Assembly (NCBI RefSeq): GCF_011068285.1
Contig: NZ_CP049616.1
Location: 2,770,501 to 2,834,500, forward strand
Direction of reading: 5' to 3'
Source: Flagellimonas oceani
GTDB taxonomy: Bacteria; Bacteroidota; Bacteroidia; Flavobacteriales; Flavobacteriaceae
Length of the DNA stretch: 64,000 nt
Part shown: positions 41,097-60,083 of the stretch, piece by piece
Numbering within the stretch: the stretch's first letter is position 1
Layout: every line of letters begins with the position of its first letter
The notes under the pieces: model-generated
The model's input: only the letters and a program-made list of their open reading frames with translations
What the model was told of the DNA's origin: nothing
The model's database searches: none
Program-made: the position numbers and the translations under genes

Positions 41097-42227
<1,131 letters not shown>

Positions 42228-42309
42228 TCCCTAAAAAGAAAGTCAAATGAAATATGCACAATTGCTCTTTAAATAGTGTTGACGCAGCACATTTCTAAAC
42301 ACTGATGAT

Positions 42310-43497
42310 ATGAAAATTACAAGTTTATTTTATAATGCCTTCGCCTTTCTGGTTATTTCAAGCTTTGGCTATGGTCAACAGGCAAATGTAAACCTGGACT
42401 ATAATCCACAGGAAGATACAGAAGGACTTATTCCCTTTAGTGCACCTGTAAATTCTCCCGAAGTGCATGATGACCAAACCGTTACGTTTCGGGTGAAAGC
42501 ACCAGAGGCAGAAAAAGTGGAATTGAATCCCGGAGCCATCAATACCGCTCTGGGCAAGGGTAGGGAGCCAATTCCATTTACAAAAGGCGAACAGGGTGTT
42601 TGGACCTTGACCATTGGACCACTCCCTCCTGATATGTATGCCTATCATGTTCGGGTGGACGGCGTGCAAATTGCGGACCCCAGCAATACGTATGCCGCAT
42701 TTACGGCCATGCCACCCTATAGTGAATTGATTGTTCATGGTGATGGCCCAGCATATTATGATGCAAAAAATGTCCCTCATGGAAACGTTACCCGTCACAT
42801 TTATCATTCTGATGTAACCCAGGGCGAACGTGAACTCTATGTGTACACACCGCCCGGCTACGATTCCGGTAAAAAATATCCGGTACTCTATTTATTGGGT
42901 GGAAGTGGTGAACTGCCTTCCAATTGGGTGTATGATGGAAGAGCCAATTTAATTATGGACAATCTTTTGGCGGAAAACAAAGCCAAGCCCATGATCATAG
43001 CAATCCCCAACAACCAAGTGATTCACCGGAACCATCCACAGCATTCAGAGCTCACCTTCGACATTTTTGAAAAAGAGCTCAGAAACCATGTGATTCCCGT
43101 GGTGGATGAAAATTACAGTACAATTCAAAGTCCAGAAGGAAGGGCCATTTCAGGATTGTCCATGGGGGGTCGCCATAGTATGTTCGTAGGCTTTAGATCT
43201 CTAGATCTCTTTGCTAATTTTGGTATTCTCAGTGCTGGGGACACCACTGCGGAAACCACCTTATCCCAGTTTTTAAATGACCCAGAAATAAATAACAAGG
43301 TAGATTATCTTTTTGTGGGGCAGGGCACCAAGGAAGCGGAAGGTTTTTTCAACTCAAGGGTTCAGGGTCTCGTCGATGCATTAAATAACCATGATATAGA
43401 ACACGAATACTATGTAGGGGGTAACGGGGGGCACGACTGGTCCACTTGGCGTCATCTCCTGTATTATAGATTCTTGCCCAACCTTTGGCAGGATTAA
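42310..43497 (+). CDS. Secreted CE1-type esterase with E-set domain, second
   Basis: A protein of 395 residues with a Sec signal (LVISSFGYGQ). An E-set domain (about 55-150, FRVKAPEAEKVELNPGA) precedes the hydrolase with [20 protein letters not shown], nucleophile Ser284 (SGLSMGG) and His375 (GGHDWSTWRHLLY). It is a paralogue of the preceding gene and of both CE1 parts of the next one. The usual HG before the oxyanion site is LGGSG here, a small difference. Substrate: probably feruloylated or acetylated glycan oligomers. Confidence 0.87.
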   Translation: MKITSLFYNAFAFLVISSFGYGQQANVNLDYNPQEDTEGLIPFSAPVNSPEVHDDQTVTFRVKAPEAEKVELNPGAINTALGKGREPIPFTKGEQGVWTLTIGPLPPDMYAYHVRVDGVQIADPSNTYAAFTAMPPYSELIVHGDGPAYYDAKNVPHGNVTRHIYHSDVTQGERELYVYTPPGYDSGKKYPVLYLLGGSGELPSNWVYDGRANLIMDNLLAENKAKPMIIAIPNNQVIHRNHPQHSELTFDIFEKELRNHVIPVVDENYSTIQSPEGRAISGLSMGGRHSMFVGFRSLDLFANFGILSAGDTTAETTLSQFLNDPEINNKVDYLFVGQGTKEAEGFFNSRVQGLVDALNNHDIEHEYYVGGNGGHDWSTWRHLLYYRFLPNLWQD

Positions 43498-43583
43498 TCC
43501 AATACCAATGAAAAAGATTTTAGAAGATATGGTTTCAGTGGGCATATTTTCCACTCGTTGGCAGATTTAAAGTGGTCTTTTAG

Positions 43584-46370
<2,787 letters not shown>

Positions 46371-46435: not shown

Positions 46436-48367
46436 ATGAAAGGTATTTCTTTTAGTCTTAAAGTTGCTTCCATGTTATTTGTATTTATTTTAATTGGTGG
46501 TTGCAATTCCTCTTCCAAACCGGAATGGGAGGAGCGGAACAACGAATTAATAAAGCAATACGGACTCCAGGTGAGGGAGCTGCCCGGATTGCCGTCTACA
46601 GAAATAAGGCCCAATTTGGAGGTAGGAACATCCACAAATCTCCAAAATTTGGAAAGTGTGCAATTATATCCTGGTGTCATGGCCAAAATTTTCTGGGGAA
46701 ATGGGAATCTGGTCAGTGTATTGGAACTGGAACCCAATTCCAACATCCCAAAAGAAAACTTGCCTGCGGATAGATTTTTGATTGTAACTGAAGGTTCCAT
46801 TGAGTTGTTTGGCAATGGCAACAAGCATGATATGATGGCGAGGGAACGGGAAGAACCGGATGGCACCCATAGCGGCACACCTAGAAATGATTTTATTTAT
46901 CAAGAAAAAGGAAACGAAAGCGAGATTGTCGCTGGAGATGCTGGAGCCAAGGTAATGGAAATTTATAGCCCTATAAGGTTTGATTATCTAGAAAAAATGG
47001 GGGTTAATGAACTTCCTTCGGAAAATCAGGGAAGGGTTTCCAACAATGAACCGACCGTTGTTCCCAATAAGGTTTATGACCTTTTCGACATTCAGTTTAC
47101 CCAATTAACCGAAGGGGTCTATGCAAGATTGGTTTCTGGAGGGGACATACAGCTAAGTTTTGTCTTGGCGGACCCAAATTCCAAGTCACCGGCACACATT
47201 CATCCAGAGGAGCAAATTACGGTTCTATTAAGGGGAACCCTAAAGCAAACCGTCTTGGACCAAGAGATGGGATTGAACCCTTACGATGTGATCCTTGTTC
47301 CTGGAAACGTAGTGCATTCTGGTGTAGCAGGCGAGTTGGGTTTTGATGCCCTTGATATTTTTTGGCCCGTTCGGGAAGATTATCTAGCCAAGCAACAGGC
47401 CGCACTTGAAAGATATCACGAAATCATACCCAAGGACGCACAGCCAGAATTGGTCATAGATGGTTCCAAAACAAAACCGCAACTGACCTTTAGTGAAGGT
47501 CCCAAGTGGATGGACGGGAAACTCTATTTTTCCAACATGTACTTCGACCAAAACTGGAACGCCGACCCCAAAAGGAGTTCCATTGTGGCATTGGAACCTG
47601 ATGGAACACACCAAAATATTATGGAAGGTAAAATGCAGGCTAACGGATTGTATCCGTATAAAAATGGCAATTTATTGGTCTGTGACATGATTGGGCACCG
47701 GGTGGTGGAAATGACCACATCCGGGCAAGTGGTCCAAGTTATTGCCGACACCTATAACGGCAAGCCCATAGACGGTCCAAACGATATTATCACCGACACC
47801 AAGGGCGGCATCTATTTCACCGACCCCCAGTTTACGATGGAAGCGGAAAAATTCCAACCGGGCAGGGCCGTTTACTATATTTCCCCTGAAAAAGAAGTGA
47901 CCCGCTTGGTGGAACCCAATGAATTTGCCATGCCCAATGGAATATTATTGACTCCCGACGGGAAAACGCTCTACATCAATAATTGTTATGATGACGAATC
48001 TTGGTATCCGGTAAACAGTTCAAAGGATAATTTTATTTGGGCGTATGATGTGAACGAGGACGGTACCATTTCAAACGGTCGGAAATTTGCAGAACTGCGT
48101 TTGACCGGCAACGTTTTGGACCGCAAAGGAAAATCCTCCAGCGCGGACGGGATGGCCATTGACACTATGGGAAATATTTATGTGGCCACCTATTTTGGGG
48201 TCCAGATTTTTGATTCCAAAGGTTCTTTTGTCGGCATGATCAATCTACCATCATTTCCGGTAAGTTTGGGTTTTGGAGATGAGGATATGAAAACGCTCTA
48301 CATTGTCAGTTATGATAAGGTGTACAAGATTCGCACCAATAGAACAGGGTATGTCAATTATCTTTAA
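46436..48367 (+). CDS. Lipoprotein with two cupin domains and an SMP-30/gluconolactonase domain
   Basis: A protein of 643 residues. The ATG at 46436 begins a lipobox signal (VFILIGGCNSS, Cys23). Two cupin segments follow: the first has VLELEPNSNIPKENLPADRF and the second has AHIHPEEQITVLLRGTL with metal-type His residues. From about 345 to the end is a six-bladed SMP-30 domain with the three expected metal ligands: Glu in TFSEGPKWMDGKLYFSN, Asn in GPNDIITDTKGGIYFTDP and Asp in SADGMAIDTMGNIYVATYFG. SMP-30 enzymes open sugar lactones. Its lipoprotein signal puts it outside the cytoplasm. It converges with the cupin gene at 48385. Confidence 0.87.
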   Translation: MKGISFSLKVASMLFVFILIGGCNSSSKPEWEERNNELIKQYGLQVRELPGLPSTEIRPNLEVGTSTNLQNLESVQLYPGVMAKIFWGNGNLVSVLELEPNSNIPKENLPADRFLIVTEGSIELFGNGNKHDMMAREREEPDGTHSGTPRNDFIYQEKGNESEIVAGDAGAKVMEIYSPIRFDYLEKMGVNELPSENQGRVSNNEPTVVPNKVYDLFDIQFTQLTEGVYARLVSGGDIQLSFVLADPNSKSPAHIHPEEQITVLLRGTLKQTVLDQEMGLNPYDVILVPGNVVHSGVAGELGFDALDIFWPVREDYLAKQQAALERYHEIIPKDAQPELVIDGSKTKPQLTFSEGPKWMDGKLYFSNMYFDQNWNADPKRSSIVALEPDGTHQNIMEGKMQANGLYPYKNGNLLVCDMIGHRVVEMTTSGQVVQVIADTYNGKPIDGPNDIITDTKGGIYFTDPQFTMEAEKFQPGRAVYYISPEKEVTRLVEPNEFAMPNGILLTPDGKTLYINNCYDDESWYPVNSSKDNFIWAYDVNEDGTISNGRKFAELRLTGNVLDRKGKSSSADGMAIDTMGNIYVATYFGVQIFDSKGSFVGMINLPSFPVSLGFGDEDMKTLYIVSYDKVYKIRTNRTGYVNYL

Positions 48368-48384
48368 AGTGTCAATGACAATGT

Positions 48385-49599
48385 CTAATTCTGTACATCG
48401 TCGCCCATAACATCATAACCGCGCCATTTGAATTCCTTGCCAAGTCCTGATGCTGCTGGCCAAGCAATTTGGTGCTGATCACTGGCCACCCACTTTCTCC
48501 TGTTTTCCTCCGTATCAAAAGATATTTGAATCTGATAGTTGTATGTAGTAGGTTCCGCCTGTATTTCCTTGGCTAAATCCTGTGGAAAAAGCCGAAGTAG
48601 TTTTGAACTGAGATACCCGTCTTGGACAACCATGGCAGGGACGTAGATGGAATAGTACATTTCTTCAAAAGCCTTGGCATTTTCCTTTTCCACCACAAAA
48701 TCCATTTGTAGGACCATGGCTTTGGGTGTTTCCAAAGGTTTGACAATTGACAATCCATTGTTTTTTGAAGCTGCAATACCAATTATTAGAATTTCAAGAT
48801 TTTCATTTCCACTACTTGACCAAGCTATTTCTTCTCCCAAACCAGCATGGAACGAATCATCCTTTTGAATCTTTACCGTCTCAGCACCTACCGTTACCGA
48901 CCCATTTCCGTTCATGATATAATACACTTCTTCAATACCTTCCAACAAATGTTTTTCCGTTGAACTGCCAGGTGGAATTACCAAGTGATCCACATAGTTC
49001 CAATCCGTTCTAAAAACTTCTGGACTAAAAATCCTTCCATACAAAACTCCTTTTCCACTATAAACATCGTTGTCTTGCTTCAGTTTATCCGTGTCCAATC
49101 GGGAAGAAACGAATGTCGGGACAACATCTTTTTTCGATCTGGCAAGATCATCCCCCAAATCAAACGCATCTCCTTGTGACTTGACTTCACTTACGGCAAA
49201 ATTCAGCCATTTGAGCGGTTTATCAGATGCATTATAAATACCATGGGAATCTCCCAGTTTACAAGGAACCAAAGCTGGTCCCTTTATTTTTGATGTTCTA
49301 CCATTAATGGTAAACTCAGCCTCTCCATCCAGAATAACATACATTTCTTCAATGGAATGGTGAAAGTGGTGACCAATACCCGATTTAGGCTGAATAACTC
49401 CAGAATGCAAGTACAAGAATTTGGTTGCCAGATCATTTCGCCCTATCAATTGGGTAAAACCCATTTTACCGGCACCGGCATGTACACTGGATAATTCCCT
49501 ATACGTCGAAGGATCATTGTGAACCACTCTTTCATTAAGATTTTGGGCCATACAGATACTGCCCATCAAACAGAACAAAAAACTGAATATTGGTTTCAT
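48385..49599 (-). CDS. Secreted double-cupin protein with C-terminal alpha/beta-barrel domain
   Basis: A protein of 404 residues; the ATG at 49599 begins the Sec signal (SFLFCLMGSICMAQ). Cupin 1 (about 60-125) has the metal motif GHHFHHSIEEMYVILDGEAE and cupin 2 (about 195-250) HLVIPPGSSTEKHLLEGIEE. The last 120 residues (VLQMDFVVEKENAKAFEEMY onward) look like a dimeric ferredoxin-like domain. The family is not named with certainty; sugar isomerase/epimerase or a binding role are possible. It is the last gene of the minus-strand catabolic block, 29 bases after the PQQ dehydrogenase. Confidence 0.78.
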   Translation of the reverse strand: MKPIFSFLFCLMGSICMAQNLNERVVHNDPSTYRELSSVHAGAGKMGFTQLIGRNDLATKFLYLHSGVIQPKSGIGHHFHHSIEEMYVILDGEAEFTINGRTSKIKGPALVPCKLGDSHGIYNASDKPLKWLNFAVSEVKSQGDAFDLGDDLARSKKDVVPTFVSSRLDTDKLKQDNDVYSGKGVLYGRIFSPEVFRTDWNYVDHLVIPPGSSTEKHLLEGIEEVYYIMNGNGSVTVGAETVKIQKDDSFHAGLGEEIAWSSSGNENLEILIIGIAASKNNGLSIVKPLETPKAMVLQMDFVVEKENAKAFEEMYYSIYVPAMVVQDGYLSSKLLRLFPQDLAKEIQAEPTTYNYQIQISFDTEENRRKWVASDQHQIAWPAASGLGKEFKWRGYDVMGDDVQN

Positions 49600-49628
49600 A
49601 ATAATGTATTTGTATCTTTTCATATAGG

Positions 49629-51902
49629 CTACTTTTTGTCCGGTATACCATAAACCAGGTAGCCTTTTGCAACTGCTCCGGGCTTCTTGGAGTGGTCGTA
49701 ACTATCGCTTCTAAAATTAGAGGTTGCATTGATTACCAAATATTCCTTGCCATCCAAGGTAAACATACTGGGTTGTGCATTGGTCTCATGACTCAGTGTA
49801 GTTTCCCATAGCACATCCCCATTTTCGGCATCAAGCGCATAAACCTTGCCCCCTTTTGCCGTGGCAAACACAATGCCCGTAGAGGTAATGACCATGCCTT
49901 TTCGCTGGGTACCATTGGGGGCTCCTTTGGTTTCGCCTCCTTGCGCATAAAGCGAATCAATACCAATAGGTCGGCGCCACTTAATGGTTCCTTCGTTCAG
50001 GTCATAAGCCACAATAGAGGACCAAGGTGGATCTATCAAACCGGGCCAATCCAGACCGTAATCCGTAGTATATTGGTCTTCTGGTTGTTCCACGCCTTCA
50101 GGATAATCCTGCATTGGGGCTCCTCGCTTTAAATCTGGTGGAATAGTCACCCCTCCTGAAGCTACGACAGGGCCATCTACTGATTCTGCTTGTTGATTGC
50201 TTCTTCTAAAACTTCTGCGTTCAGGGTCTCCTCCTATATAACGGAACAAGGCTTTCAAGGAAGCTTCATCCACATGCACCAGACCGGGCATTACACCTTT
50301 TCCATTGATCACTGTATTTCTGAATTCTTCGTAGTACATATGATGCCCCAGATTCTTTAGGGAGGGTCCTGCCCCACCCTCCATATTGGAACCATGGCAG
50401 GCAATACACGAGGAGCCATAAAGGGATTTGACCTTGTCCACATCATTTTCCGTAAGCTCGTTTTTTGGTGGTTCCACCTTGCTCAATCTGTAAGTCGATG
50501 CATATTCCTGGGTCATTATGTACATCATTCCATTGCGAGGGTCGGCCGCTGTGTTTCCATAATTGGCACCACCCAAAGCCCCTGGCATCATAATGGTCTC
50601 GTATTTATCTGAGGGAGGTACGTACAATCCTGTTTTTGCAGAATCCAATCTTTTGAGCCAATCCTGCCGAAGACTATCCGAAAAATAAGGGTTCAAGTTT
50701 TCTTTGGTCACCTCATGTCTCGTAAAACTCGGAAGTGAGGTGATGGGTTGGGTGGGCCAAGATTCCTCCCCTGGCATTTCGCTTTTGGGAAACGGTTTTT
50801 CCTCTATGGGAAATAGTGGTTCCCCGGTTACCCTATCAAATACAAAAACAAAACCATGTTTGGTAGCAATGGCCACTGCATCCACTTTTTTGCCATCTTT
50901 GTCCACTGTGAGCAATTGTGGTGCCGGTGACAGGTCATAGTCCCAGAGATCATGGTGCACCGTTTGGTAGTGCCAGAGCCTCTCCCCCGTTTTTGCATCA
51001 AGGGCCACCAAAGAGTTGGCGAAAAGATTACTTCCCAACCGATCAGCGCCATAATAATCATAGGTTGGCGAACCGATGGGCAAAAAGGCAATTCCACGTT
51101 CCGTATCTACCGATATTTCGCTCCATACGTTGGCACCTCCTACATATTTATAAGCATCCTTAGGCCAAGTTTCATATCCATATTCCCCGGGATGGGGTAT
51201 GGTGTGAAAAATCCACTCCATTTTACCGGTAACCACATTATAGGCCCTTACGTGACCAGGTGGAGAAAAATAGGCCTCCCCGGGCGCGGACCCCAGTATC
51301 AACAGATTTTCGTAGATAACACCCGGCATCATGGGCTGTATCCTTGTTATGGATGTTGGATCTCTATCTAAACCTTCCCTAAGATCAACATAGCCATTGT
51401 TGCCGAAATCCATAACAGATTTTCCAGTAACGGCATCAATCGCCTGAATGGAATTGTTCAGCGTGAACAGTAATCTTTTGCTTTTTTTGTCCTCACTTTC
51501 CCAATAATTGATACCTCTTCGGGTAATTCCCGGTAAATCCGCATGTATCCAAAGTTCTTCACCCGTTTTGGCATTGATGGCAATAAGGGAGCTATTTTTC
51601 CCGAGAACGTACATGGTACTGTCCACAATAATGGGGCTGAAAAAATAAAAACGATCATCTCCCGACGGGTAGCTCCACAACAATTCCATTTGCTCAACAT
51701 TAGACTTGGTGATACTGGGCGACTCGAAAAACTTGGATTGGTCTGGACTACCTCCATAGTGTGACCATGTGATGTGTTCAGCAACTACGTTTGAATGGTT
51801 CCGACATCCCAATATAGTAGCCAAGATTATCAGCATGGTCGAGATAGGTCTCGACGTAGAAGTGAATTTAGTAGTTGACATTGTTCTCGATGAAAAGTCC
51901 AT
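49629..51902 (-). CDS. PQQ-dependent sugar/alcohol dehydrogenase with haem c domain (lipoprotein)
   Basis: A quinoprotein of 757 residues that would oxidise an aldose or alcohol outside the cytoplasm and pass electrons to its own haem. A lipobox ends at Cys33 (LATILGC). The beta-propeller has repeated PQQ blades (AINAKTGEELW, AYNVVTGKMEW, ALDAKTGERLWHYQ, ALDAENGDVLWETT). An inserted cytochrome c domain holds CIACH (C499, C502, H503) and a Met ligand (GVMPG, M538). The overall layout matches membrane-bound quinoprotein glucose dehydrogenase relatives. The start at 51902 may instead be the ATG at 51881. It follows the RraA-like gene by 64 bases. Confidence 0.88.
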   Translation of the reverse strand: MDFSSRTMSTTKFTSTSRPISTMLIILATILGCRNHSNVVAEHITWSHYGGSPDQSKFFESPSITKSNVEQMELLWSYPSGDDRFYFFSPIIVDSTMYVLGKNSSLIAINAKTGEELWIHADLPGITRRGINYWESEDKKSKRLLFTLNNSIQAIDAVTGKSVMDFGNNGYVDLREGLDRDPTSITRIQPMMPGVIYENLLILGSAPGEAYFSPPGHVRAYNVVTGKMEWIFHTIPHPGEYGYETWPKDAYKYVGGANVWSEISVDTERGIAFLPIGSPTYDYYGADRLGSNLFANSLVALDAKTGERLWHYQTVHHDLWDYDLSPAPQLLTVDKDGKKVDAVAIATKHGFVFVFDRVTGEPLFPIEEKPFPKSEMPGEESWPTQPITSLPSFTRHEVTKENLNPYFSDSLRQDWLKRLDSAKTGLYVPPSDKYETIMMPGALGGANYGNTAADPRNGMMYIMTQEYASTYRLSKVEPPKNELTENDVDKVKSLYGSSCIACHGSNMEGGAGPSLKNLGHHMYYEEFRNTVINGKGVMPGLVHVDEASLKALFRYIGGDPERRSFRRSNQQAESVDGPVVASGGVTIPPDLKRGAPMQDYPEGVEQPEDQYTTDYGLDWPGLIDPPWSSIVAYDLNEGTIKWRRPIGIDSLYAQGGETKGAPNGTQRKGMVITSTGIVFATAKGGKVYALDAENGDVLWETTLSHETNAQPSMFTLDGKEYLVINATSNFRSDSYDHSKKPGAVAKGYLVYGIPDKK

Positions 51903-51966
51903 TATACCAAGTTTTCATACACTCGGCAGGGCAAATGGCATTTGTCAAAATTTGATAGGTTTAGGT

Positions 51967-52902
51967 TTACCAAGTTCTTTTCTTCAAAATTTCTTGAATC
52001 TGCTCTCTGGAAACAGGAAGCTCATCAATATGTTCGTTGAGCCACTTGCTAAAATCCTTTTCGATTTCATCGGACCAACGCGTATCAATCTGTCCGGCAG
52101 TATAGGTTCCTTCTTTGATACGTTGATGTCCGAACATATCACGTAAGCGAACAACTTCGGAAGTTGTCGCCACTTTTTCTGCCAAATGGGCCGGTATAAA
52201 GGTGACCACCCCCATTTTGCCCAAAACAACATCCCCGGGCATTACGGTTACGGTTCTAATCCTTGTAGGTTGATTGATTCCGATGAGCATCGTGTTCAAG
52301 TCCCCCGGGGGATTATGGTGGGAAGCGTCGTAACTGGTGTAATAGGAAGTAAAACCGCCAATTTCCATGAGTCCTTCCACATCCCTTAGTGCGCCATCAT
52401 AAACAATTCCGTTACCTGTTTTTGCAAAAATGGCGTTACCCACGTTGTCACCAATTGTTGGGCCATCCTTGTCCGCACCAAATTGGTCGGCTACATAAAC
52501 ATCTCCCTTCACCAAAATATCCACGGGCCACGTATTCTGTCCTCGTTTTCCCTGGGCCTTACCACGATCATCGATGGCTTTCCAAACATCGGGGCGACCA
52601 GGCATAAAGGTTGCCGTGACAGCACGCCCGACCAAAACACTATCTGGATTTATCATTTTCCAGTCCTCTGCGATTTGATATCGATAGCCTTCGTTTTTCA
52701 TTACGGCCCAAGCCTCTTCCACACTAACGGATTTTATCCTTTCCAATAATGCATCCGAAACTTTTGGCCTTCCATCATCAAAGCGTTCTCCTTTCCATTC
52801 CGGGGTTAAAAAAATAAGTTCTTCCTTACTGATCTGTTGACCTATCAATTGGGTTGCCAGACCAACAAGAACCATTAGGATCATATACTTTTTTCGTAAC
52901 AT
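51967..52902 (-). CDS. Secreted RraA-like protein (HMG-aldolase fold), copy 1
   Basis: A protein of 311 residues with a Sec signal (MILMVLVGLATQLIGQ). The RraA/HMG-CHA aldolase core is present: KGDVYVADQFGADKDG, GDNVGNAIFAKTGNG and YDGALRDVEGL with R173 and D174 at the catalytic positions of the aldolases. True RraA proteins are cytoplasmic, about 160 residues, and inhibit RNase E; this one is exported and nearly twice as long, so a metabolic class II-type aldolase is more likely. The extra N-terminal part (KGERFDDGRPKVSDALLERI) is shared with the copy at 55858. Confidence 0.85.
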   Translation of the reverse strand: MLRKKYMILMVLVGLATQLIGQQISKEELIFLTPEWKGERFDDGRPKVSDALLERIKSVSVEEAWAVMKNEGYRYQIAEDWKMINPDSVLVGRAVTATFMPGRPDVWKAIDDRGKAQGKRGQNTWPVDILVKGDVYVADQFGADKDGPTIGDNVGNAIFAKTGNGIVYDGALRDVEGLMEIGGFTSYYTSYDASHHNPPGDLNTMLIGINQPTRIRTVTVMPGDVVLGKMGVVTFIPAHLAEKVATTSEVVRLRDMFGHQRIKEGTYTAGQIDTRWSDEIEKDFSKWLNEHIDELPVSREQIQEILKKRTW

Positions 52903-52929
52903 AATAGTATCTGTTTAATGAGTTATCGA

Positions 52930-54213
52930 TTATTCAAAAAATGGTATTCCCTCGGGCGCATATTTTCTCATGGCCTCTTCATTGATGTCTACTCCAATAC
53001 CTGGTTTGTCCGAAACCTTTACAAAACTGTCCTTCACCCAATCCCCTTCATCATAGGTCACAATTTCCTTAAACATGGAATCGGTGTGGAAATAGGATTG
53101 CCACTCCATTAAATGGAAATTAGGTACAGAGGCGCAAACATGGGCACATGCCATGGCCCCCAAAAACGAGGCTACCATATGTGGTGAAAAAGGCACATAA
53201 TAAAGATTCGCAAGATTGGCGATTCTTTGTCCTTCTCCCAGTCCACCACACTTTTGCAGATCTGGCATTATAATATCCACGCCATTATCCAATAATTGTT
53301 TAAATCCGTGACCTAAGTATACGTTTTCACCTGCAGAAATGGGCGTACTGGTTTCCTCTGCCAGCGTTTTAAAAGCGTCGAAGTTCTCTGCCGGAATTGG
53401 CTCTTCCAACCATGTTAGATTCAAATCTTCTACTTTTTTGGCAATGGTCTGGGCGGTCACATGATCATATCGTCCATGCATATCCACACATAGATCAATT
53501 TTTGGTCCTACCGCTTCCCTGACCGCAGCAAGTTGGTCATACATTCTTATAATTTCCCCAGGGCTGGCTGTCCAATTATAGCGATCGTATTTATCAGGGT
53601 CACTGGCATAATCCAAGTCGAATTTCAATGCATTGAAGCCCCAATTTTTAATGGCGTCCTTGGCCGCGGTAGCGAAATCATCGGGTGAAGGGAACCGAAC
53701 ACGGTATAAAGCGGTATCACAATATACCCTTACTTTATCACGGAACTTACCTCCCAACAATTGATAAACGGGCAAATCAAGTGCCTTACCCGCCAAATCC
53801 CATAAAGCGGTCTCTATCGCAGAAAGAACAGCTACGTATGCCCCTGATTGCCCACCACCGAAATGACCTGCACGACGAATGTCTTCAAATATTTTATGGA
53901 CATTGAACGGATTTTGGTCCCTCAAAAAAAATCCCATTCTTTTGACCAAGTGGTAGGTTCCGGGCACGGCATCCACGCCCTCTCCGCAACCATAAATTCC
54001 CTGATTGGTGTGTATTTTAACAAACAATCCGCTTCCTCGTCTAATATATCCGCATTTAACATCCGTGATTTTTAAATCAGATGGTGCGGATAATTTTGGA
54101 TTTTTATCTATTGCTTTTTGATATTCTGAACCATATGTCGCTGATGACACCATTCCCAATCCTGCACTGGCCATGATTGATTTGGATATAAAAGATCTTC
54201 TTGAATTTTTCAT
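52930..54213 (-). CDS. Tat-exported enolase-superfamily sugar-acid dehydratase, copy 1
   Basis: A protein of 427 residues, mandelate racemase/muconate lactonising type, similar to gluconate/galactonate/mannonate dehydratases. A Tat signal (NSRRSFISKS with R5R6) exports it folded. Capping domain about 48-160 and barrel 165-390. Active-site residues: K197-x-D199 (ALKFDLD), D244-x-H246 (VDMHGR, acid/base pair of the dehydratase group), metal ligands D244, E270 (WLEEP) and E296 (SAGEN), D318 (MPDLQKCGG) and H345 (SPHM). It would turn an aldonate into a 2-keto-3-deoxy acid. The neighbours are a BASS carrier and an RraA-like protein, 37 and 27 bases away. Confidence 0.88.
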   Translation of the reverse strand: MKNSRRSFISKSIMASAGLGMVSSATYGSEYQKAIDKNPKLSAPSDLKITDVKCGYIRRGSGLFVKIHTNQGIYGCGEGVDAVPGTYHLVKRMGFFLRDQNPFNVHKIFEDIRRAGHFGGGQSGAYVAVLSAIETALWDLAGKALDLPVYQLLGGKFRDKVRVYCDTALYRVRFPSPDDFATAAKDAIKNWGFNALKFDLDYASDPDKYDRYNWTASPGEIIRMYDQLAAVREAVGPKIDLCVDMHGRYDHVTAQTIAKKVEDLNLTWLEEPIPAENFDAFKTLAEETSTPISAGENVYLGHGFKQLLDNGVDIIMPDLQKCGGLGEGQRIANLANLYYVPFSPHMVASFLGAMACAHVCASVPNFHLMEWQSYFHTDSMFKEIVTYDEGDWVKDSFVKVSDKPGIGVDINEEAMRKYAPEGIPFFE

Positions 54214-54250
54214 AATTTGAGAATTTTTTTAAAATGGATAAAATATTATT

Positions 54251-55357
54251 TTAGTTGACTACTATAGGTTTAGGGGGGTCAGGGGTAGGCTTTCTATGCC
54301 AGTATGAGGCCAAGATTGAGCCGGTGATGTTCATCAGAGGTCCAAATACTGCGGGTGCCAATCCCATCGTGGCAATTTTACCCAAACTGTTTGCTATACC
54401 TGATGCCAATCCTCCGTTTTGCATTCCCACTTCAATGGCAATGGTCCTGGCATCCCTTTCGGACATCCTAAAGAGCTTTGCGTACCAATATCCCAGTAAA
54501 TACCCAAAAATATTGTGCATCAACACCAGCAACATCAACGTTCCACCGATTTCCAAAAGGCTGTCCCTACCCGCTGCAGTAATGATGGTAATTATAAGCC
54601 CAATTGCCAACATGGATATTAAGGGCATTGCCCTACCCAACCATTTAGTGTTATTGCCAAATAGTTTATTAAACAATAGTCCGGCCCCAATGGGTAGAAT
54701 GATCATCTTTATGATACTCCACATCATGGTTAACACATCAATTTCAATGAACTCCCCAGCGAATAACTTCATCATTAAAGGCGTAAGAAATGGTGCCAAA
54801 AGTGTTGCGATGGAAGTAATGGTTATCGAAAGTGCGACATTTGCCTTGGCCAAAAAAGCCATTACGTTGGAGGCCACACCACTGGGAGAACAGCCTATGA
54901 GCACTATTCCTGCCGCAATTTCTGGTGGAAAGTTACTGATCTGTGCCAAAAAATAGCCCATTAGCGGCATTACGACCAATTGTGCCGAAACTCCGATCAC
55001 CACCCCTTTTGGGGATTGAAATATGGCGGCAAAATCTTTGATACTCATTGTTGTTCCCATACCGAACATGATAATCTGTATCAAAGGAATTATGAGTGCC
55101 GTGAATTTGAAATCACCAATTTGGGTAAAGTAATCAGGAAAATAAAGTGCTGCCGTCACCCCTGCAAAAATCATGGTTGTGAAAATCAATCCCTTCATTT
55201 TTTCGTACCCGTTAAACCCGAAGGCCAACAAAGCAAAAAATCCAAGGATAAATGGTCCAGCTTGATCGATATGGCCCATGATGACCATTCCAATTATAAC
55301 GATGAAAAGCAGAGCTGCCAACCCTAATGCTATAGAATAAATACTTATCTTTTTCAA
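54251..55357 (-). CDS. Sodium symporter of the BASS (bile acid:Na+) family
   Basis: An inner-membrane carrier of 368 residues with about ten helices. The family motifs are IIMFGMGTTMSIKDFAAIFQSPKGVVIG (95-122), GIVLIGCSPSGVASNVMAFLAKANVALS near 150 and the late EVGMQNGGLASGIA. BASS carriers import organic anions with sodium; some carry pyruvate, pantoate or keto acids. Its place between the dehydratase and NTF2-like genes suggests uptake of the organic acid made outside the cytoplasm. The spacing to neighbours is 12 and 37 bases, so one operon. Confidence 0.87.
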   Translation of the reverse strand: MKKISIYSIALGLAALLFIVIIGMVIMGHIDQAGPFILGFFALLAFGFNGYEKMKGLIFTTMIFAGVTAALYFPDYFTQIGDFKFTALIIPLIQIIMFGMGTTMSIKDFAAIFQSPKGVVIGVSAQLVVMPLMGYFLAQISNFPPEIAAGIVLIGCSPSGVASNVMAFLAKANVALSITITSIATLLAPFLTPLMMKLFAGEFIEIDVLTMMWSIIKMIILPIGAGLLFNKLFGNNTKWLGRAMPLISMLAIGLIITIITAAGRDSLLEIGGTLMLLVLMHNIFGYLLGYWYAKLFRMSERDARTIAIEVGMQNGGLASGIANSLGKIATMGLAPAVFGPLMNITGSILASYWHRKPTPDPPKPIVVN

Positions 55358-55369
55358 AATAGGAGAGAT

Positions 55370-55831
55370 TTAAAGTTTATAGGCCTGTCTTGCCAGCAAT
55401 TTCCATTGTTTGCCTTCTTTTTGAAAAACCAACAGACAACCAATATTCACTGTCGCGGGTGTACCATTATTCGTTCCTTCTCCCTTAAAAATATGGCGTA
55501 CTACACCGGTTTTACCAGAAGTTGTTATGGTTTGATCTACCGGGGTTATCGAAGAAAATTGGAAACCACCATTTAAAACACCGTCCACGTATTCCTTTTT
55601 GTTCTCTATCTTACCGCTAGAGTGGCCGTAGGTTAGACTTTCCATAGTCAATTCTTCCAGTTTATCTTTGTTTCTATTGACCATGGCTTTGTAAAGTTGA
55701 CTTACGGCATCATCGATTTTTTTGACTTCGGCAGTATTTTTTTGGGCCACTAAAGTGGTGGAGAAACAAAGAAGTATTCCTAAAAAACAGTGTTTTGTTA
55801 TGGTTGAAAATTCAATAAGGTATTTTTTCAT
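55370..55831 (-). CDS. Secreted NTF2-like (DUF4440) protein
   Basis: A protein of 153 residues with a Sec signal (LGILLCFSTTLVAQ). The rest is a SnoaL/ketosteroid-isomerase-like fold: KKIDDAVSQLYKAMVNRNKD, LEELTMESLTYGHSSGKIEN and a strand region ending in LLARQAYKL. Related proteins bind small organic molecules or serve as isomerases. It lies 26 bases after the RraA-like gene and 12 before the BASS gene. The substrate is unknown; a lactone or keto-acid isomerase is conceivable. Confidence 0.75.
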   Translation of the reverse strand: MKKYLIEFSTITKHCFLGILLCFSTTLVAQKNTAEVKKIDDAVSQLYKAMVNRNKDKLEELTMESLTYGHSSGKIENKKEYVDGVLNGGFQFSSITPVDQTITTSGKTGVVRHIFKGEGTNNGTPATVNIGCLLVFQKEGKQWKLLARQAYKL

Positions 55832-55857
55832 TCTATTGGTTTTATGCTGGCAGTTAT

Positions 55858-56796
55858 CTATTGTTTTTTAGATGCCATATAATCATTGAGTTCTTTTCTG
55901 GACATGGGTAACTTGCTATCTGGATATTCCTTTAGCCAGTTTTCGAAATCTGTATTGATCTCTTCCGTCCATTTCGTGTCTATCTGTCCTGCGGTGTATT
56001 TTTTCTCCCGTAATCTTTGGAACCCAAACAGATCGCGCAGGCCTACGATTTCAGAAGACAGTACCAATTCCGAAGCCAAATGTGAAGGAATAAAAACGGT
56101 ACCATGCCGGTTCGCCAAAACCACATCGCCCGGTAATACGGTTGCCCTTCCAATTCGGATGGGCATATTAATACTGGTCAACATTTCCTCCTGCAGATAA
56201 GAAGGATCCGCACCTTTGTGCCAGCCATTGAATCCCTCAATATCCAAGAGCCCTGCGACATCCCTTACGCCACCGTCAAAAATTACCCCGTTTTTGGAAT
56301 TGGTATAAATGGCATTTCCTAAATTGGAACCGATCAGCGTGCCATCTATAATTCTTCCATAGCCATCTGCCACGTAGACGTCTCCAGGCACTAATTGTTG
56401 AATGGGCCATGAATTGCTTCCTCCAATGGTATCCCGTTTCTCCTGTGCGCCTTTAAGTTTCACCAACTGCTGATAGTCTGGTCTAAGTGGCATATATTGT
56501 GCCGTTACCACCCTACCGGTCATGGCTCTCTCTGGATGGATTATTTCCCATTCACCTTCATATTGGTTGTTATATCCCTTTCTTCTTAAAAAGCCCCAGG
56601 CCTCTTCTATTTGAATATTTTTCATTCTTTGCAATAAGGCATCGGAAACCTTTGGCCTTCCGTCCTCAAAACGCTCTCCGGTCCAGTTGGAGGTCAATTC
56701 CATAATGTATTCCGGTGAAGCGGTAACTCCTTGCGGTTTGGCATAAAAAAAAGCAAGAAAGCAACTTAGCCCCAATACCATCCTTAAATTTCTCAT
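55858..56796 (-). CDS. Secreted RraA-like protein (HMG-aldolase fold), copy 2
   Basis: A protein of 312 residues with a Sec signal (VLGLSCFLAFFYAKPQG). It is a clear paralogue of the protein at 51967: TGERFEDGRPKVSDALLQRM near 39, VPGDVYVADGYGRIIDG, GSNLGNAIYTNSKNG and FDGGVRDVAGL with R178 and D179. It keeps the Arg-Asp pair of pyruvate-releasing aldolases of this fold. It is likely a second activity or partner of the same pathway. It starts a tight minus-strand run after a 218-base gap with a large hairpin. Confidence 0.85.
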   Translation of the reverse strand: MRNLRMVLGLSCFLAFFYAKPQGVTASPEYIMELTSNWTGERFEDGRPKVSDALLQRMKNIQIEEAWGFLRRKGYNNQYEGEWEIIHPERAMTGRVVTAQYMPLRPDYQQLVKLKGAQEKRDTIGGSNSWPIQQLVPGDVYVADGYGRIIDGTLIGSNLGNAIYTNSKNGVIFDGGVRDVAGLLDIEGFNGWHKGADPSYLQEEMLTSINMPIRIGRATVLPGDVVLANRHGTVFIPSHLASELVLSSEIVGLRDLFGFQRLREKKYTAGQIDTKWTEEINTDFENWLKEYPDSKLPMSRKELNDYMASKKQ

Positions 56797-56856
56797 GTTC
56801 TATATTTTTTAATTTTCCTTTAAAAGGGATCCGTTCTTCACTAATTCCCTACTGTG

Positions 56857-56908
56857 TTAAGTTGGATAGGAAACCCCCGTTAACACGGGAGTTCTCCCAT
56901 CAACTTAA
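56857..56908. repeat. Long imperfect hairpin in the gap between the two halves of the minus-strand operon
   Basis: TTAAGTTG (56857-56864) pairs with CAACTTAA (56901-56908), and CCCGT (56876-56880) with ACGGG (56885-56889) around TAAC. It lies between the first dehydratase gene and the RraA-like gene. It could end, slow or process the transcript. Confidence 0.6.
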
Positions 56909-56942
56909 ACTAAATCAAACTAACTCAAACTAAATCCAAACT
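56907..56942. repeat. 10-bp tandem repeat
   Basis: AAACTAAATC, AAACTAACTC, AAACTAAATC, then C and AAACT: three and a half units of ten bases, about one helical turn each. It overlaps the edge of the hairpin at 56857-56908. Confidence 0.6.
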
Positions 56943-57014
56943 TGTCCCTACTACAGGGTCAATGATAATCTATTGGCACATCCTCATTCAGTAGGATGTT
57001 ACCACCTTTATTCG

Positions 57015-58514
57015 TTAACTATAAGTTCTATCGTGGGAACGAAGCTCGTTCCATTCCTCGGTAGATTTAAAGAATGTTTTATCCGAAGGATGTAAATGCG
57101 CCTTCACCACTTCTTCATCCAACTCTATCCCCAAACCTGGTGCGGTAAGTGGAACCGTGGCAAAACCTTTATCGATCATCTTAAAACCTCCAACCGTTTT
57201 TACCAGACTTTCCCACCATGGCACATCCACCGAATGGTGCTCCAGAGCCAAAAAGTTTTGGGTCGCAGCCGCACAATGCACATTGGCCATAAAGGAAACA
57301 GGTGTGCCTGCTTGGTGCATGGCCATTCCAATTCCAAATTCCTCTGCATAATCACCAATCCGTTTTGTCTCCAAAAGACCACCTGATGATGCTAAGTCTG
57401 GGTGTACAATATCAACCGACCTGTTATGGATGATGGGCTTGAAGTTCTCCAAGAAATGGATATCCTCACCTGTGGTGGTAGGCGTTTCCAGAGCTTCGGA
57501 GATGGTTCTCCACTGCTCTGTGTATTGCCATGGCACCATGTCTTCCAACCAAGCCAGTCTAAATTTGTCCAGCGCTTTTCCTAAACGGATTCCATTGTTA
57601 AGGTCGAAGTGTCCGTAGTGATCGGTGGAAATTGGAACTTCCCAACCTACCATTTCCCTAACATCCGCTACGCGTTGGGCCAACATTTCAAGGCCTTTCT
57701 CCGTAATCTGGATTTGGGTGAAGGGATGCATGGTGTTACCGTAGGACATATAGTTCCTGGCATCTCCCCACTGGGACAAACGACCGTTGTCATCTCTCCA
57801 GAATTTATCATTCACCAAGGTTCCGGAATCTGGTGGAAGTGAAGAAATAGCCACATCCATTTTCAACCAGGTATACCCTTGGGTATTCATTCTATAGTCG
57901 ATCAGCTTCTTTTGTTCCTCGGAGCTTCTTGCCTGGGGCGTATCAGCATAAAGTCTTACCTTATCGCGATAGCGTCCTCCCAGCAATTGCCAAGCGGGTA
58001 CATTGTAGGCCTTGCCACAAATATCCCAGAGTGCCATTTCCACCGCACAAACCCCGCCAGCTTGCCTGGCAGGTCCCCCAAATTGTTTTATACTCTTGAA
58101 TATTTTCTCGACATTACAAGGATTTTTACCCAAAATCCTACTTTTAAGAAATAGTGCATAACGTACGTCTGCGGCGTCCCTTACCTCACCAAGACCATAG
58201 ATTCCTTGATTGGTCTCTATCTTGATTATGGCCGTCCCGCCCATCACATTTGTGAGGGCATACCTCATATCGGTAATCTTGAGTTCCGAAGGGGCGGACA
58301 TACGGCTGACCTTGGATGTGGTCTGTGCTATGGTTTCCTCGATGCCCAGTCCAACCATACTGGTCATTGCAATGCCTCCCAATGCGGTTTTTTTCAGAAA
58401 GCTTCTTCTGTCATCCGCGGTTTTTGGGTTCTCAATTTCTGCCTGCCTCGCCAACCTAAGGTCTCTTTCTTCTTGCTTGTTCTTGGCTATGATTTGTTTT
58501 AATACTGATTTCAT
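57015..58514 (-). CDS. Tat-exported enolase-superfamily dehydratase, copy 2
   Basis: A protein of 499 residues. A long N-terminal stretch (35 residues) comes before the Tat motif DDRRSFLKK at 35-43. The enolase-type core has ALEMAL/WDICGKAYNVPAWQLLGG, K218 (WLKMD), D298, E324 (WLEDM), E350 (TGED), D373 (HPDLASSGG) and H400 (MAMHQAGTP). The usual D-x-H is replaced by TDHYGH (298 H 299 Y 300), so the acid/base chemistry may differ from copy 1. It follows susD by 33 bases. Substrate likely another aldonate or a different epimer. Confidence 0.85.
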   Translation of the reverse strand: MKSVLKQIIAKNKQEERDLRLARQAEIENPKTADDRRSFLKKTALGGIAMTSMVGLGIEETIAQTTSKVSRMSAPSELKITDMRYALTNVMGGTAIIKIETNQGIYGLGEVRDAADVRYALFLKSRILGKNPCNVEKIFKSIKQFGGPARQAGGVCAVEMALWDICGKAYNVPAWQLLGGRYRDKVRLYADTPQARSSEEQKKLIDYRMNTQGYTWLKMDVAISSLPPDSGTLVNDKFWRDDNGRLSQWGDARNYMSYGNTMHPFTQIQITEKGLEMLAQRVADVREMVGWEVPISTDHYGHFDLNNGIRLGKALDKFRLAWLEDMVPWQYTEQWRTISEALETPTTTGEDIHFLENFKPIIHNRSVDIVHPDLASSGGLLETKRIGDYAEEFGIGMAMHQAGTPVSFMANVHCAAATQNFLALEHHSVDVPWWESLVKTVGGFKMIDKGFATVPLTAPGLGIELDEEVVKAHLHPSDKTFFKSTEEWNELRSHDRTYS

Positions 58515-58547
58515 TCTTTATTCCTTTTTGATAATATCGGTTTCTAA

Positions 58548-60083
58548 TTAATCCACATCCCACCAAACCTTGGTATCCAAGTTATCGGGTCCCATTCTGG
58601 AAACCGCTTCTTGAAGGTTTGCCTGATTTACAGCTATCTCGGCAGGAGGATAAGTCAACCTATTTATGAAATCTCCTGTGATATCCTGGGCAGGATATGG
58701 GTTGGGCGTCAAATCCGGATACCCGGACCTTCTAAAATTGGCGAACAACTCCGGTCCGTTCAAAAAGGAAGCCACCCAGTATTGTGTATTGATCTCCTCA
58801 ACGGCATTGGCCAGGTTCAAGGGGTTGGCAGCTATATAAGAATCAATATCAGTTCCAGCAATGGCCACACTTTCACCATAGGCCGCTACCTGCTCCATAT
58901 GTCCGCGTATCCCATTTTCGTAATACTCGGACGGGTCGCCCGCTACCCATCCATTGACGGCGGCTTCTGCCAATAACAATTGGGTCTGTGCATAGGTGCA
59001 GAGAAACATTGGCGACGACTGGGCACCGTAGGTAAACCGATCCACTTGTGAAAAGTCATAGAAACTGGCAAGTCCTTCACTGGTCGCAACAGTGCCAATG
59101 GTACTGTTGTCATACCCCATGGGCATCCCTATTTGATCATCAGCATCCTTGGAGGCAATTGCCTCGACTTGGTCCGGTCCCGATGCAGCACCCACATATC
59201 TGATTGCCAACGAAGCCAATCTTGGATCATCGTTATTATATAAGTAATCCACGAATACATCCGTTAAATAGAAGTTGTTGGCTTCCGTTCCATTAAAGGT
59301 AAAACTGTATGGATTGGTGAAATTGTTATCGTGCCTGACCACAAAGTTATCATCATTGGACTCCATAACCCCTCCGTTAAAGCCACTTTGAACGGTCTGT
59401 TGTGCCAAGGTGGGATCTACATTTGAAAGTCGCATACCCATCCTGACCAAGAGGGAATTGGCCAATTTTCTCCACTGGTCCAAATCTCCTGCATACATGG
59501 CTTCTCCACTTTCGGCAGGAGCTGAATCGCTCAACGCGTCCCTTGCCTCTGTCAATTCATTGATCAAATCCGGATAAATCTGTTCCTGGGGATCATAACT
59601 TGGCAGTACCACCTGCTCGGACAAGCCCTTACCTGCTTCAAAATAGGGGATTTCCCCGTATTCATCAGTCAATACCATGAAAGCATAGGCTTCCAAGATA
59701 CGGGCCATCTGCAATAAATTGGAACGGTCCGATTCTTCAGTATTAAGCTGAAGAATAACGTCACTGGTATGTTTTATGACATTTTGATAATATGCATCCC
59801 ACTGGTTACCGGTATTGTTACGGTTATCCTGATTATAGTTGGCTCCGGCCACAAATCCCGAATTGGGTGTAACAATTTGCTGTACAATCGCTTCATCGTA
59901 GTAGATATTGGTACCACTTGGGAAGGAAAGTCCAACGATTGCATTGTTCAACAAGAACACTGGGTCTATACTTTCACTTGTTGGATCTACAGTGTTGGTA
60001 TTGAGTTCATCAAAATTTTCTTCGCATCCCAATAGACCTATGAGGATTACAAAGATTATGATTCTATTCCCTATATTTTTCAT
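58548..60083 (-). CDS. SusD-like surface lipoprotein
   Basis: A protein of 511 residues with a lipobox ending at Cys20 (IGLLGCEENFDELN). It belongs to the SusD-like_2 type: VDPTSESIDPVFLLNNAIVG near 32, the central ANSLLVRMGMRLSNVDP, FLCTYAQTQLLLAEAAVNGW and a C-terminal RLTYPPAEIAVNQANL. It binds ligand on the surface and closes over its SusC partner, whose gene ends 10 bases before it. Confidence 0.92.
   Translation of the reverse strand: MKNIGNRIIIFVILIGLLGCEENFDELNTNTVDPTSESIDPVFLLNNAIVGLSFPSGTNIYYDEAIVQQIVTPNSGFVAGANYNQDNRNNTGNQWDAYYQNVIKHTSDVILQLNTEESDRSNLLQMARILEAYAFMVLTDEYGEIPYFEAGKGLSEQVVLPSYDPQEQIYPDLINELTEARDALSDSAPAESGEAMYAGDLDQWRKLANSLLVRMGMRLSNVDPTLAQQTVQSGFNGGVMESNDDNFVVRHDNNFTNPYSFTFNGTEANNFYLTDVFVDYLYNNDDPRLASLAIRYVGAASGPDQVEAIASKDADDQIGMPMGYDNSTIGTVATSEGLASFYDFSQVDRFTYGAQSSPMFLCTYAQTQLLLAEAAVNGWVAGDPSEYYENGIRGHMEQVAAYGESVAIAGTDIDSYIAANPLNLANAVEEINTQYWVASFLNGPELFANFRRSGYPDLTPNPYPAQDITGDFINRLTYPPAEIAVNQANLQEAVSRMGPDNLDTKVWWDVD

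Follow-up and report, generated by a model that had tools for sequence, protein, structure and literature searches.

A putative extracytoplasmic route of non-phosphorylative sugar oxidation encoded behind a SusC/SusD pair in Flagellimonas oceani

How far can a bacterium oxidise a sugar before any part of it reaches the cytoplasm? Sugar breakdown beyond the acid stage is taught as a cytoplasmic process, and the question is raised by a locus of Flagellimonas oceani (Bacteroidota, Flavobacteriaceae) contained in a stretch of 64,000 nucleotides, hereafter the window (assembly GCF_011068285.1, contig NZ_CP049616.1, positions 2,770,501 to 2,834,500). Behind a SusC/SusD pair the locus encodes two enolase-superfamily proteins, EnoA and EnoB, each paired with an RraA-fold protein, RraA and RraB, respectively, as well as a pyrroloquinoline quinone (PQQ)-dependent dehydrogenase, a lactonase-like protein and an organic-acid carrier, and the enzymes among them carry predicted export signals. 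It is rather probable that they form an extracytoplasmic, non-phosphorylative (Dahms/Weimberg-type) pathway of aldose breakdown, independent of ATP and soluble NAD and split in this lineage. The gene pattern is firm; the chemistry and the location are predicted from sequence. An earlier note on this DNA (the original prediction) had proposed such an exported set, with the dehydratase and RraA steps outside the cytoplasm. Its interpretation is right in outline, and finds partial support in the conserved pairing and signals, the intact metal ligands of the enolases and an invariant Arg-Asp; it missed a cytoplasmic half beyond the window.

On the minus strand, between positions 48385 and 63600, ten co-directional genes are separated by intergenic gaps of 5–218 bases, in the order SusC, SusD, EnoA, RraA, NTF2-like, BASS, EnoB, RraB, PQQ dehydrogenase and double-cupin CUP; an eleventh gene, SGL, faces them:

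60094..63600, minus strand: SusC-like TonB-dependent receptor with an STN domain (STN, Plug, CarbopepD_reg_2)
58548..60083, minus strand: SusD-like lipoprotein (PF12771, PF12741)
57015..58514, minus strand: EnoA, candidate enolase-superfamily (MR/MLE) acid-sugar dehydratase with a Tat signal
55858..56796, minus strand: RraA, predicted exported RraA-fold protein of the S-X20-R-D type, partner of EnoA
55370..55831, minus strand: NTF2/SnoaL-like protein (DUF4440) with a Sec signal
54251..55357, minus strand: BASS/SBF-type inner-membrane carrier, nearest curated model PanS (ketopantoate/pantoate)
52930..54213, minus strand: EnoB, candidate enolase-superfamily dehydratase with a Tat signal, nearest model galactonate dehydratase
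51967..52902, minus strand: RraB, predicted exported RraA-fold protein of the D-X20-R-D type, partner of EnoB
49629..51902, minus strand: PQQ-dependent dehydrogenase with an inserted c-type cytochrome, lipoprotein (lipobox TILGC)
48385..49623, minus strand: CUP, two cupin domains and a Sec signal; a C-terminal DUF4286-like stretch is weak and below cut-off
46436..48367, plus strand: SGL, lipoprotein with a cupin region followed by an SMP-30/gluconolactonase propeller, convergent to the operon

All the families named in the original prediction were recovered in their places by domain or family matches. Of its two cupin proteins, CUP is a separate double-cupin protein, and the other corresponds to the cupin region within SGL. 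Likewise, its SusC/SusD-led set holds for the ten co-directional genes and not for SGL, which is located on the plus strand, convergent on the other genes, and is therefore outside the operon transcript. The SGL frame opens at 46403; the start at 46436, already used in the original prediction, gives the lipobox FILIGGC and is preferred.

Is the combination of these genes more than a local accident? A scan with RraA alone of one genome per species (84,980 species) led to 26 loci, in which EnoA lies within 5 kb of the RraA-type gene in 23, BASS in 17, NTF2 in 16, EnoB in 12 and the PQQ gene in 6 (related loci and genomes are designated by L and G numbers). EnoA is not nearby in the Chloroflexota loci L026 and L027, nor in L022, whose contig starts inside RraA; the named sequences nearest to RraA come from Flagellimonas/Allomuricauda. 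A search with EnoB alone (E <= 1e-130), which avoids choosing by RraA, found it in eight of 296 genomes of the phylum, F. oceani included, and in all seven others the gene directly beside it is RraB-like (in two pieces in L085) and the Tat motif is present, with BASS near in four. In an order-wide sample of 146 genomes RraA (E <= 1e-50) was found in three and EnoA (E <= 1e-100) in one, with F. oceani counted in both; the two other RraA genomes, G107 and G100 (loci L070 and L071), contain a version with a DgaE-like protein discussed below. The set is accessory and rare, and the pairing is not background. The original prediction had suggested comparing neighbourhoods among relatives, and this comparison finds the exported dehydratase–RraA pairing and its signals kept across the phylum, an observation more general than was known when the prediction was made.

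The two pairs are also separable. EnoA–RraA stands alone at that place in L017–L021, and EnoB–RraB pairs are found in L067, L073, L077 and the seven phylum loci, in L090 with an EnoA remnant. Confluentibacter has the order BASS-RraB-EnoB-SGL-SGL-like with PQQ alongside, different from that of the window, and Adhaeribacter has RraB-CUP-PQQ, with an EnoA/RraA array elsewhere. A single linear pathway for one sugar is weakened by this separate travel of the pairs. The duplicated Eno–RraA pairs suggest two substrates, and one pair for each of two acids is the most economical interpretation. Damaged copies occur as well. In L090 (10554-11216) a single frame fuses the start of RraA to the end of EnoA, as if the intervening stretch had been lost, with RraB and EnoB intact beside it; in L085 (10618-11582) and L014 RraB is in two pieces, through a frameshift or a sequencing error, and the adjoining EnoB is intact.

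The location of the proteins is predicted from their leaders. By eye, EnoA begins with a 34-residue n-region followed by DRRSFLKK and a hydrophobic stretch, EnoB has SRRSFISK and a hydrophobic stretch, Sec-type leaders are present on RraA, RraB, the NTF2-like protein and CUP, and lipoboxes on the PQQ protein and SGL. Both enolases thus have RRxF before a hydrophobic stretch, as Tat substrates do, and TatC is encoded in the genome. In the related loci signals were counted with one home-made caller, L068 being omitted as a duplicate of L016, and L081, which duplicates the SGL gene of L006, being retained, so that six judged SGL rows are five genes. A Tat signal was called in 30 of 31 full-length EnoA proteins (nine of the 31 from L023) and in 17 of 18 EnoB proteins, and an export signal in RraA (28/31, one as Tat from an upstream start), RraB (21/21), NTF2-like (18/18), CUP (6/6), PQQ (7/7, one as Tat from an upstream start) and SGL (6/6 rows). 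The five uncalled EnoA, EnoB and RraA proteins are all from the Chloroflexota loci L026–L028, and in the alignment the Chloroflexota proteins begin where the leader of the other rows ends. No signal was called in the controls FAH (0/6), KGSADH (0/3), UxuA (0/4), UxuSDR (0/5), ECF sigma (0/11) and FucDH (0/2). The caller by itself is weak, and the argument for export depends on its agreement with the alignment. Wider searches, limited to 8,000 candidates each, found at least 7,997 relatives of RraA and at least 7,416 of EnoB, and among the best 120 of each the Tat pattern is present in 114 EnoB proteins, the remaining six starting later, and the Sec rule is passed by 104 RraA proteins, most of the other 16 being called from a start inside the leader. 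The Sec, Tat and lipoprotein signals of the original prediction are borne out by this conservation, and the enzymes acting after the lactonase, EnoA, EnoB, RraA and RraB, all carry predicted export signals.

What might the exported enolases do? Both retain, in the alignment, all three metal ligands and the Asp-His dyad. Their motifs, with the roles usual in MR/MLE enzymes, are for EnoB/EnoA D (DMHGR/DHYGH), E (LEEP/LEDM), E (GEN/GED), D (MPD/HPD) and H; of the 120 listed EnoB relatives, 118 share DMHGR and two have DLHGR. The best curated model for EnoB is D-galactonate dehydratase (NF010624), although its cut-off of 311 bits is not reached by EnoB (241.8) or EnoA (180). EnoA scores 28.9 of 828.7 bits with the glucarate dehydratase model and 91.9 of 500 with the talarate/galactarate one, and it represents a separate subgroup with the motifs D-H-[YF]-G-H and GED. 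The aligned Bacteroidota EnoA rows share K-M-D, D-H-[YF]-G-H, ED, GED, HPD and H, barring two copies from L023 with K-x-H and DHIGQ or DHMGH, one of them with QPD; a Rhizobium etli protein has DHIGH and GED at these places. EnoB thus keeps the motif residues expected of acid-sugar dehydratases. As a side observation, L023 (Adhaeribacter aquaticus, 1-20909) contains a tandem array of ten EnoA paralogues, with 57-66% identity to the EnoA of the window, around three exported RraA genes; the locus edge truncates one of the ten.

The RraA-fold proteins had been proposed as aldolases. The Arg-Asp of the catalytic motif is invariant in 15 aligned RraA-family rows. RraB has an Asp 21 residues before it (D-X20-R-D), as in the HMG/CHA aldolase structure 3NOJ, in which this spacing is seen and which presumably exemplifies the D-X20-R-D catalytic/metal motif of HMG/CHA-type class II aldolases. 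RraA has Ser at that position (S-X20-R-D), as do 120 of 120 listed relatives, and a third group of exported RraA-fold proteins has Ala. The HMG/CHA aldolase model (TIGR02798, cut-off 304.5 bits) is not reached by RraB (32.9) or RraA (50.8). In the HMG/CHA aldolase, which belongs to the class II pyruvate aldolases, Arg123 is critical, and the same class is described as the likely one for most homologues of this enzyme and of RraA (PMC5065237). The RraA-family protein FlDet, from Flavobacterium sp. UMI-01, is a dehydratase/decarboxylase; of the keto acids tested it accepted 2-keto-3-deoxyglucarate alone (PMC8563752). RraB is likely to be an aldolase, as suggested by its motif, and RraA may be either an aldolase or a FlDet-like dehydratase/decarboxylase; cleavage is likelier for RraB than for RraA because the characterised Flavobacterium enzyme of the family is a dehydratase/decarboxylase. 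Regulation of RNase E by these proteins was rejected, as they carry export signals and keep the catalytic Arg-Asp.

In a tree of 61 of the 66 collected RraA rows (those omitted were shorter than 215 amino acids or near-duplicates) one clade (100/100) unites the 39 exported-type rows from Bacteroidota, and three signal-less Chloroflexota proteins stand just outside it in an enclosing clade of 42 rows (100/100). The FlDet-type rows are elsewhere, the window proteins not being among them, and the deeper joins are unsure because of long branches. FlDet itself is absent from the tree, its clade having been picked by eye from the reported N-terminus and the reported close Zobellia relatives; an aligned FlDet-type protein is 21% identical to RraB, and four of five FlDet-type rows have Ser before X20-R-D. 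Among apparently cytosolic relatives on alphaproteobacterial plasmids, the RraA proteins of R. etli and R. brockwellii accompany MR/MLE dehydratases and sugar ABC transporters, and others are paired with an L-arabinonate dehydratase (Rhizobium sp. T1473, Terrarubrum; nearby in Sulfitobacter); these loci were chosen by EnoA/RraA similarity and are a handful among hundreds of records. They suggest that the link between RraA and dehydratases is old and that export is a novelty of Bacteroidota. On the Terrarubrum plasmid (L033:1167-3501) RraA, an NTF2-like protein and a mannonate dehydratase stand in a row; an NTF2-like protein thus adjoins RraA outside Bacteroidota too, which hints at a shared role.

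Put together, these families would form the following route. SusC/SusD would bring a sugar or oligosaccharide across the outer membrane, and the PQQ/haem lipoprotein, judged by its family, would oxidise an aldose to the lactone and pass the electrons to cytochrome c. The lactone would be opened by the SMP-30 protein. Dehydration by EnoB, with EnoA acting on a second acid, would yield 2-keto-3-deoxy acids, which RraB, perhaps also RraA, would split into pyruvate and a short aldehyde, and BASS would carry the keto acid across the inner membrane. Any 2-keto-3-deoxypentonate entering the cell would be dehydrated by an FAH-family enzyme and oxidised to 2-oxoglutarate by an alpha-ketoglutaric semialdehyde dehydrogenase (KGSADH)-type enzyme. 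PQQ, haem c and divalent metals are the sole cofactors of the extracytoplasmic families, and since these suffice, the outside steps would need neither ATP nor free NAD. The PQQ protein has a PQQ propeller, and its residues 487-556 form a c-type cytochrome domain; it matches the general PQQ Pfam domain and scores 325.9 bits against a cut-off of 832.65 for PQQ glucose/quinate/shikimate dehydrogenase (TIGR03074). BASS reaches 237.4 of the 400 bits of the PanS model. CUP and the NTF2-like protein, possibly isomerases or mutarotases, accompany the set, and CUP-PQQ-RraB recurs even in Adhaeribacter.

The claim that only the last product crosses the inner membrane is not borne out by what lies past the end of the window, where the set continues:

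63728..64000, minus strand: 3' part of a FecR-type anti-sigma gene running beyond the window end (whole gene L029:429-1592)
L029:1717-2205, own genome beyond the window: ECF sigma factor

Such a pair of FecR and ECF sigma factor usually controls SusC proteins that have an STN domain. Divergent after them (L029) are genes for two proteins without signals, an FAH-family enzyme of 405 aa and an aldehyde dehydrogenase of 527 aa. Both are adjacent in F. oceani, G001–G004 and G008, and the FAH gene alone in G006 and G007; an FAH protein of at least 60% identity is encoded in 13 of 27 genomes, and the other 14 include several that keep the Eno–RraA pair. The FAH and KGSADH-type assignments are by homology, with no curated equivalog cut-off passed, and the structure nearest to FAH, 9kkt, is named by family; FAH-relative loci in Caballeronia and Rhizobium had no pathway context. 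The D-specific 2-keto-3-deoxypentonate dehydratases studied belong to the FAH family and the L-specific ones to the DHDPS family (PMC7374468). Because signal-less enzymes of these two types flank the operon, flux may also cross the inner membrane as a 2-keto-3-deoxy acid and end as 2-oxoglutarate; the neighbours fit an import of 2-keto-3-deoxypentonate or of the semialdehyde.

Five further loci bear on the substrate of the RraA-type proteins. In L066, L070, L071, L076 and L078 an RraA-type gene is near a DgaE-like pyridoxal phosphate (PLP) protein (six copies, five called Tat), with BASS in three of the five loci and an exported amidohydrolase in four; that of L070 is over the PRK09237 cut-off. 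The two scanned DgaE-like proteins have the DgaE ammonia-lyase models as best match. DgaE-type lyases convert an amino-sugar acid phosphate to a 2-keto-3-deoxy acid, on which a KDPG-type aldolase then acts in classic clusters. The five loci are like such clusters (NCBIfam TIGR01437, TIGR03583) in having a 2-keto-3-deoxy-acid lyase beside an amidohydrolase, and differ in the exported RraA nearby and the mostly Tat-type lyase; no KDPG-aldolase gene was found in the five stretches with one query (E <= 1e-15), a weak test. As a DgaE-like lyase replaces the enolase there, RraA most likely acts on 2-keto-3-deoxy acids, and the loci resemble a route for amino-sugar acids outside the cytoplasm. An exported source of 2-keto-3-deoxy acid together with an exported RraA protein would then be what the versions have in common. 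A broader generalisation, tentative and of somewhat less than even probability, is a portable Bacteroidota module of an exported 2-keto-3-deoxy-acid maker and an exported RraA-fold pyruvate aldolase, often with BASS, in which the way from sugar to pyruvate would be completed outside without ATP or soluble NAD and small keto acids alone imported, RraA having been externalised once from a Chloroflexota-like cytosolic ancestor. The maker would be an enolase-type dehydratase for sugar acids and a DgaE-like lyase for amino-sugar acids.

As to the sugar, a pentose such as D-xylose or L-arabinose is the best guess that gene context allows. It is favoured because FAH and KGSADH-type genes stand beside the operon, because EnoB–RraB in L085 is in line with araA-araD-araB-galM-GH127-GH51 genes, and because a Tat-type, xylose-dehydrogenase-like Gfo6 (about 160 bits, cut-off 350) adjoins RraB in L009 and is 5 kb from RraB in L086. 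Against a pentose, EnoA–RraA is near UxuA in Kriegella and Zobellia and RraA–NTF near UxaC/UxuA in Ulvibacterium, and in L009 the presence of a fuconolactonase-like gene and of a FucDH over cut-off points tentatively to L-fucose or D-arabinose. Instead of PQQ/CUP, L009 (14992-20237) and L022 contain Tat-type Gfo6-like and Zn-type dehydrogenases, an L-fuconolactonase-like protein, an L-fucose dehydrogenase (over cut-off) and an MFS sugar permease.

Several observations weigh against the proposed route. The Asp of the aldolase motif is missing from RraA, and FlDet, the sole characterised RraA enzyme of sugar acids found, is no aldolase but a dehydratase/decarboxylase (PMC8563752). None of the window proteins reaches the curated cut-off for galactonate dehydratase, HMG/CHA aldolase or PQQ sugar dehydrogenase, and neither of the two scanned DgaE-like proteins (L070, 196.7; L066, 175.9) reaches that of the DgaE family (TIGR01437, 385.3 bits). 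Exported RraA proteins without an exported lyase within 5 kb are encoded in L075, L079, L080 and as a second copy in L069, the one in L079 among apparently cytosolic hexuronate genes (UxaC, UxuA, KDG kinase-like, KDPG aldolase). The PQQ gene accompanies the set in 6 of 26 loci, and FAH and KGSADH are adjacent in 8 and 7 of 27 genomes, respectively, F. oceani included. A D-KdpD-type FAH enzyme is D-specific, and the best EnoB context is that of L-arabinose. PqqC was not found in the genome by a search that had no match in control genomes either; uptake of PQQ from outside is only a possibility. The signal caller made false or doubtful Tat calls in three of four FucLac proteins (in L009 and L022 a leaderless lactonase with an internal RR motif; that of L072 looks real), and Sec calls in one of three FlDet-type rows, three of 17 FecR and one of two ZnADH proteins.

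The alternatives overlap with the extracytoplasmic pathway set out above, and the probabilities behind the words used for them do not sum to one. It is rather unlikely that nothing is cleaved outside, EnoB and EnoA making 2-keto-3-deoxypentonate in the periplasm, BASS importing it whole, FAH and KGSADH converting it to 2-oxoglutarate and the RraA proteins having another task, such as handling isomers or clearing by-products. The KGSADH-like neighbour, though below curated cut-offs, and the FAH/KGSADH adjacency in F. oceani and the G genomes speak for such a split Weimberg pathway, but RraA is a steadier partner of the dehydratase than FAH, KGSADH, PQQ or BASS, and Eno–RraA pairs persist in several of the 14 genomes without the FAH protein. 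A low probability is also given to an aldarate route, in which uronates would be oxidised to aldarates outside, EnoA would form 2-keto-3-deoxyglucarate, and a FlDet-like RraA would turn this into alpha-ketoglutaric semialdehyde for import and oxidation by KGSADH. It has a Flavobacterium precedent in FlDet (PMC8563752), the Ser shared by RraA and four of five FlDet-type rows, and the UxuA and UxaC/UxuA neighbours in Kriegella, Zobellia and, without EnoA, Ulvibacterium; in Kriegella, moreover, KGSADH adjoins EnoA-RraA-NTF-BASS with no FAH beside it, but FAH is present elsewhere in that genome. The shared Ser may be chance, the FlDet-type proteins are a different clade (one aligned being 21% identical to RraB), and EnoA is far below the cut-offs for glucarate and talarate/galactarate dehydratases.

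That the signals are non-functional, or that the proteins share no pathway and the locus is an ordinary, loosely assembled one for polysaccharide use, is very unlikely: the predictions come from visual inspection and from a home-made caller that makes false calls, yet leaders are found in all judged full-length Bacteroidota EnoA, EnoB, RraA and RraB proteins and are absent from the Chloroflexota ones, and the adjacency survives across classes of the phylum. More improbable still is a different chemistry, in which the exported proteins would oxidise or cleave aromatic or phenolic acids freed by esterases, RraA acting as in protocatechuate 4,5-cleavage. Esterase/SASA genes are indeed present at 41109-46370, the RraA fold is that of the HMG/CHA aldolase too, and MR/MLE includes muconate cycloisomerases, but EnoA and EnoB score best with sugar-acid dehydratases; this reading was rejected, no ring-cleavage family being found among the scanned genes of the window and L029 and the relatives being near arabinose and hexuronate genes.

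The extracytoplasmic route can also be compared with known systems. In Gluconobacter and Pseudomonas a PQQ dehydrogenase and a lactonase oxidise sugars in the periplasm, and the acid is imported; there the outside route ends at the acid or keto acid, whereas here a dehydratase and RraA follow. The HMG/CHA aldolase, which is cytosolic, shares with the RraA-fold proteins the fold and the active-site Arg-Asp, and with RraB the Asp 21 residues before Arg, and differs in its aromatic pathway, its chain of 238 aa and a modest, below-cut-off similarity. Families of sugar dehydrogenase, lactonase and aldonate dehydratase occur together at the locus, as families and not as activities, in the order of the Weimberg and Dahms pathways, where a 2-keto-3-deoxy acid dehydratase and KGSADH or an aldolase follow (PMC9795676); here, in contrast, the dehydratases belong to the enolase superfamily, they and the next step have export signals, and an RraA-fold protein takes the aldolase place. 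Many bacterial aldopentonate dehydratases are of the Fe-S IlvD/EDD family, enolase-type ones having been reported from archaea, and the word periplasm is absent from the accessible main text of that review of pentose pathways (PMC9795676). FlDet/FlDeg of Flavobacterium sp. UMI-01 likewise use an RraA-family enzyme on a 2-keto-3-deoxy sugar acid and then KGSADH; FlDet differs in its 237 aa, its clade, its alginate-derived substrate, 2-keto-3-deoxyglucarate, and the lack of a cleaved leader, as its native N-terminus starts at Met (PMC8563752). MR/MLE dehydratases also act in the non-phosphorylative sugar-acid breakdown of the SAR202 enolase-paralogue pathways, in the accessible text of which RraA is not mentioned (PMC10444878). 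The Chloroflexota loci L026–L028 hold the nearest signal-less RraA relatives, which thereby differ from the window proteins. No exported dehydratase–RraA pathway was found in searches of open-licence papers, nor in the accessible part of PMC5698469.

If the extracytoplasmic reading is true, electrons could be harvested at cytochrome c with no ATP or NAD spent, one carrier for small keto acids could replace many sugar transporters, and intermediates could be kept from competitors or leaked to neighbours; exported RraA-like and Tat-type mandelate-racemase-like proteins would gain a function.

Upstream of SGL lies a possible supplier of the sugar:

41109..46370, plus strand: three carbohydrate-esterase genes of the Esterase family, the third with SASA and two esterase domains

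The third of these (43590-46370) encodes a 926-aa protein with an SASA esterase domain and two more esterase domains, after two single esterases. Beyond the other end of the window, L029:7702-10352 encodes an AtuA-family protein next to a carrier of the CitMHS type (over cut-off) and a carboxylesterase-like protein, with no obvious connection to the pathway.

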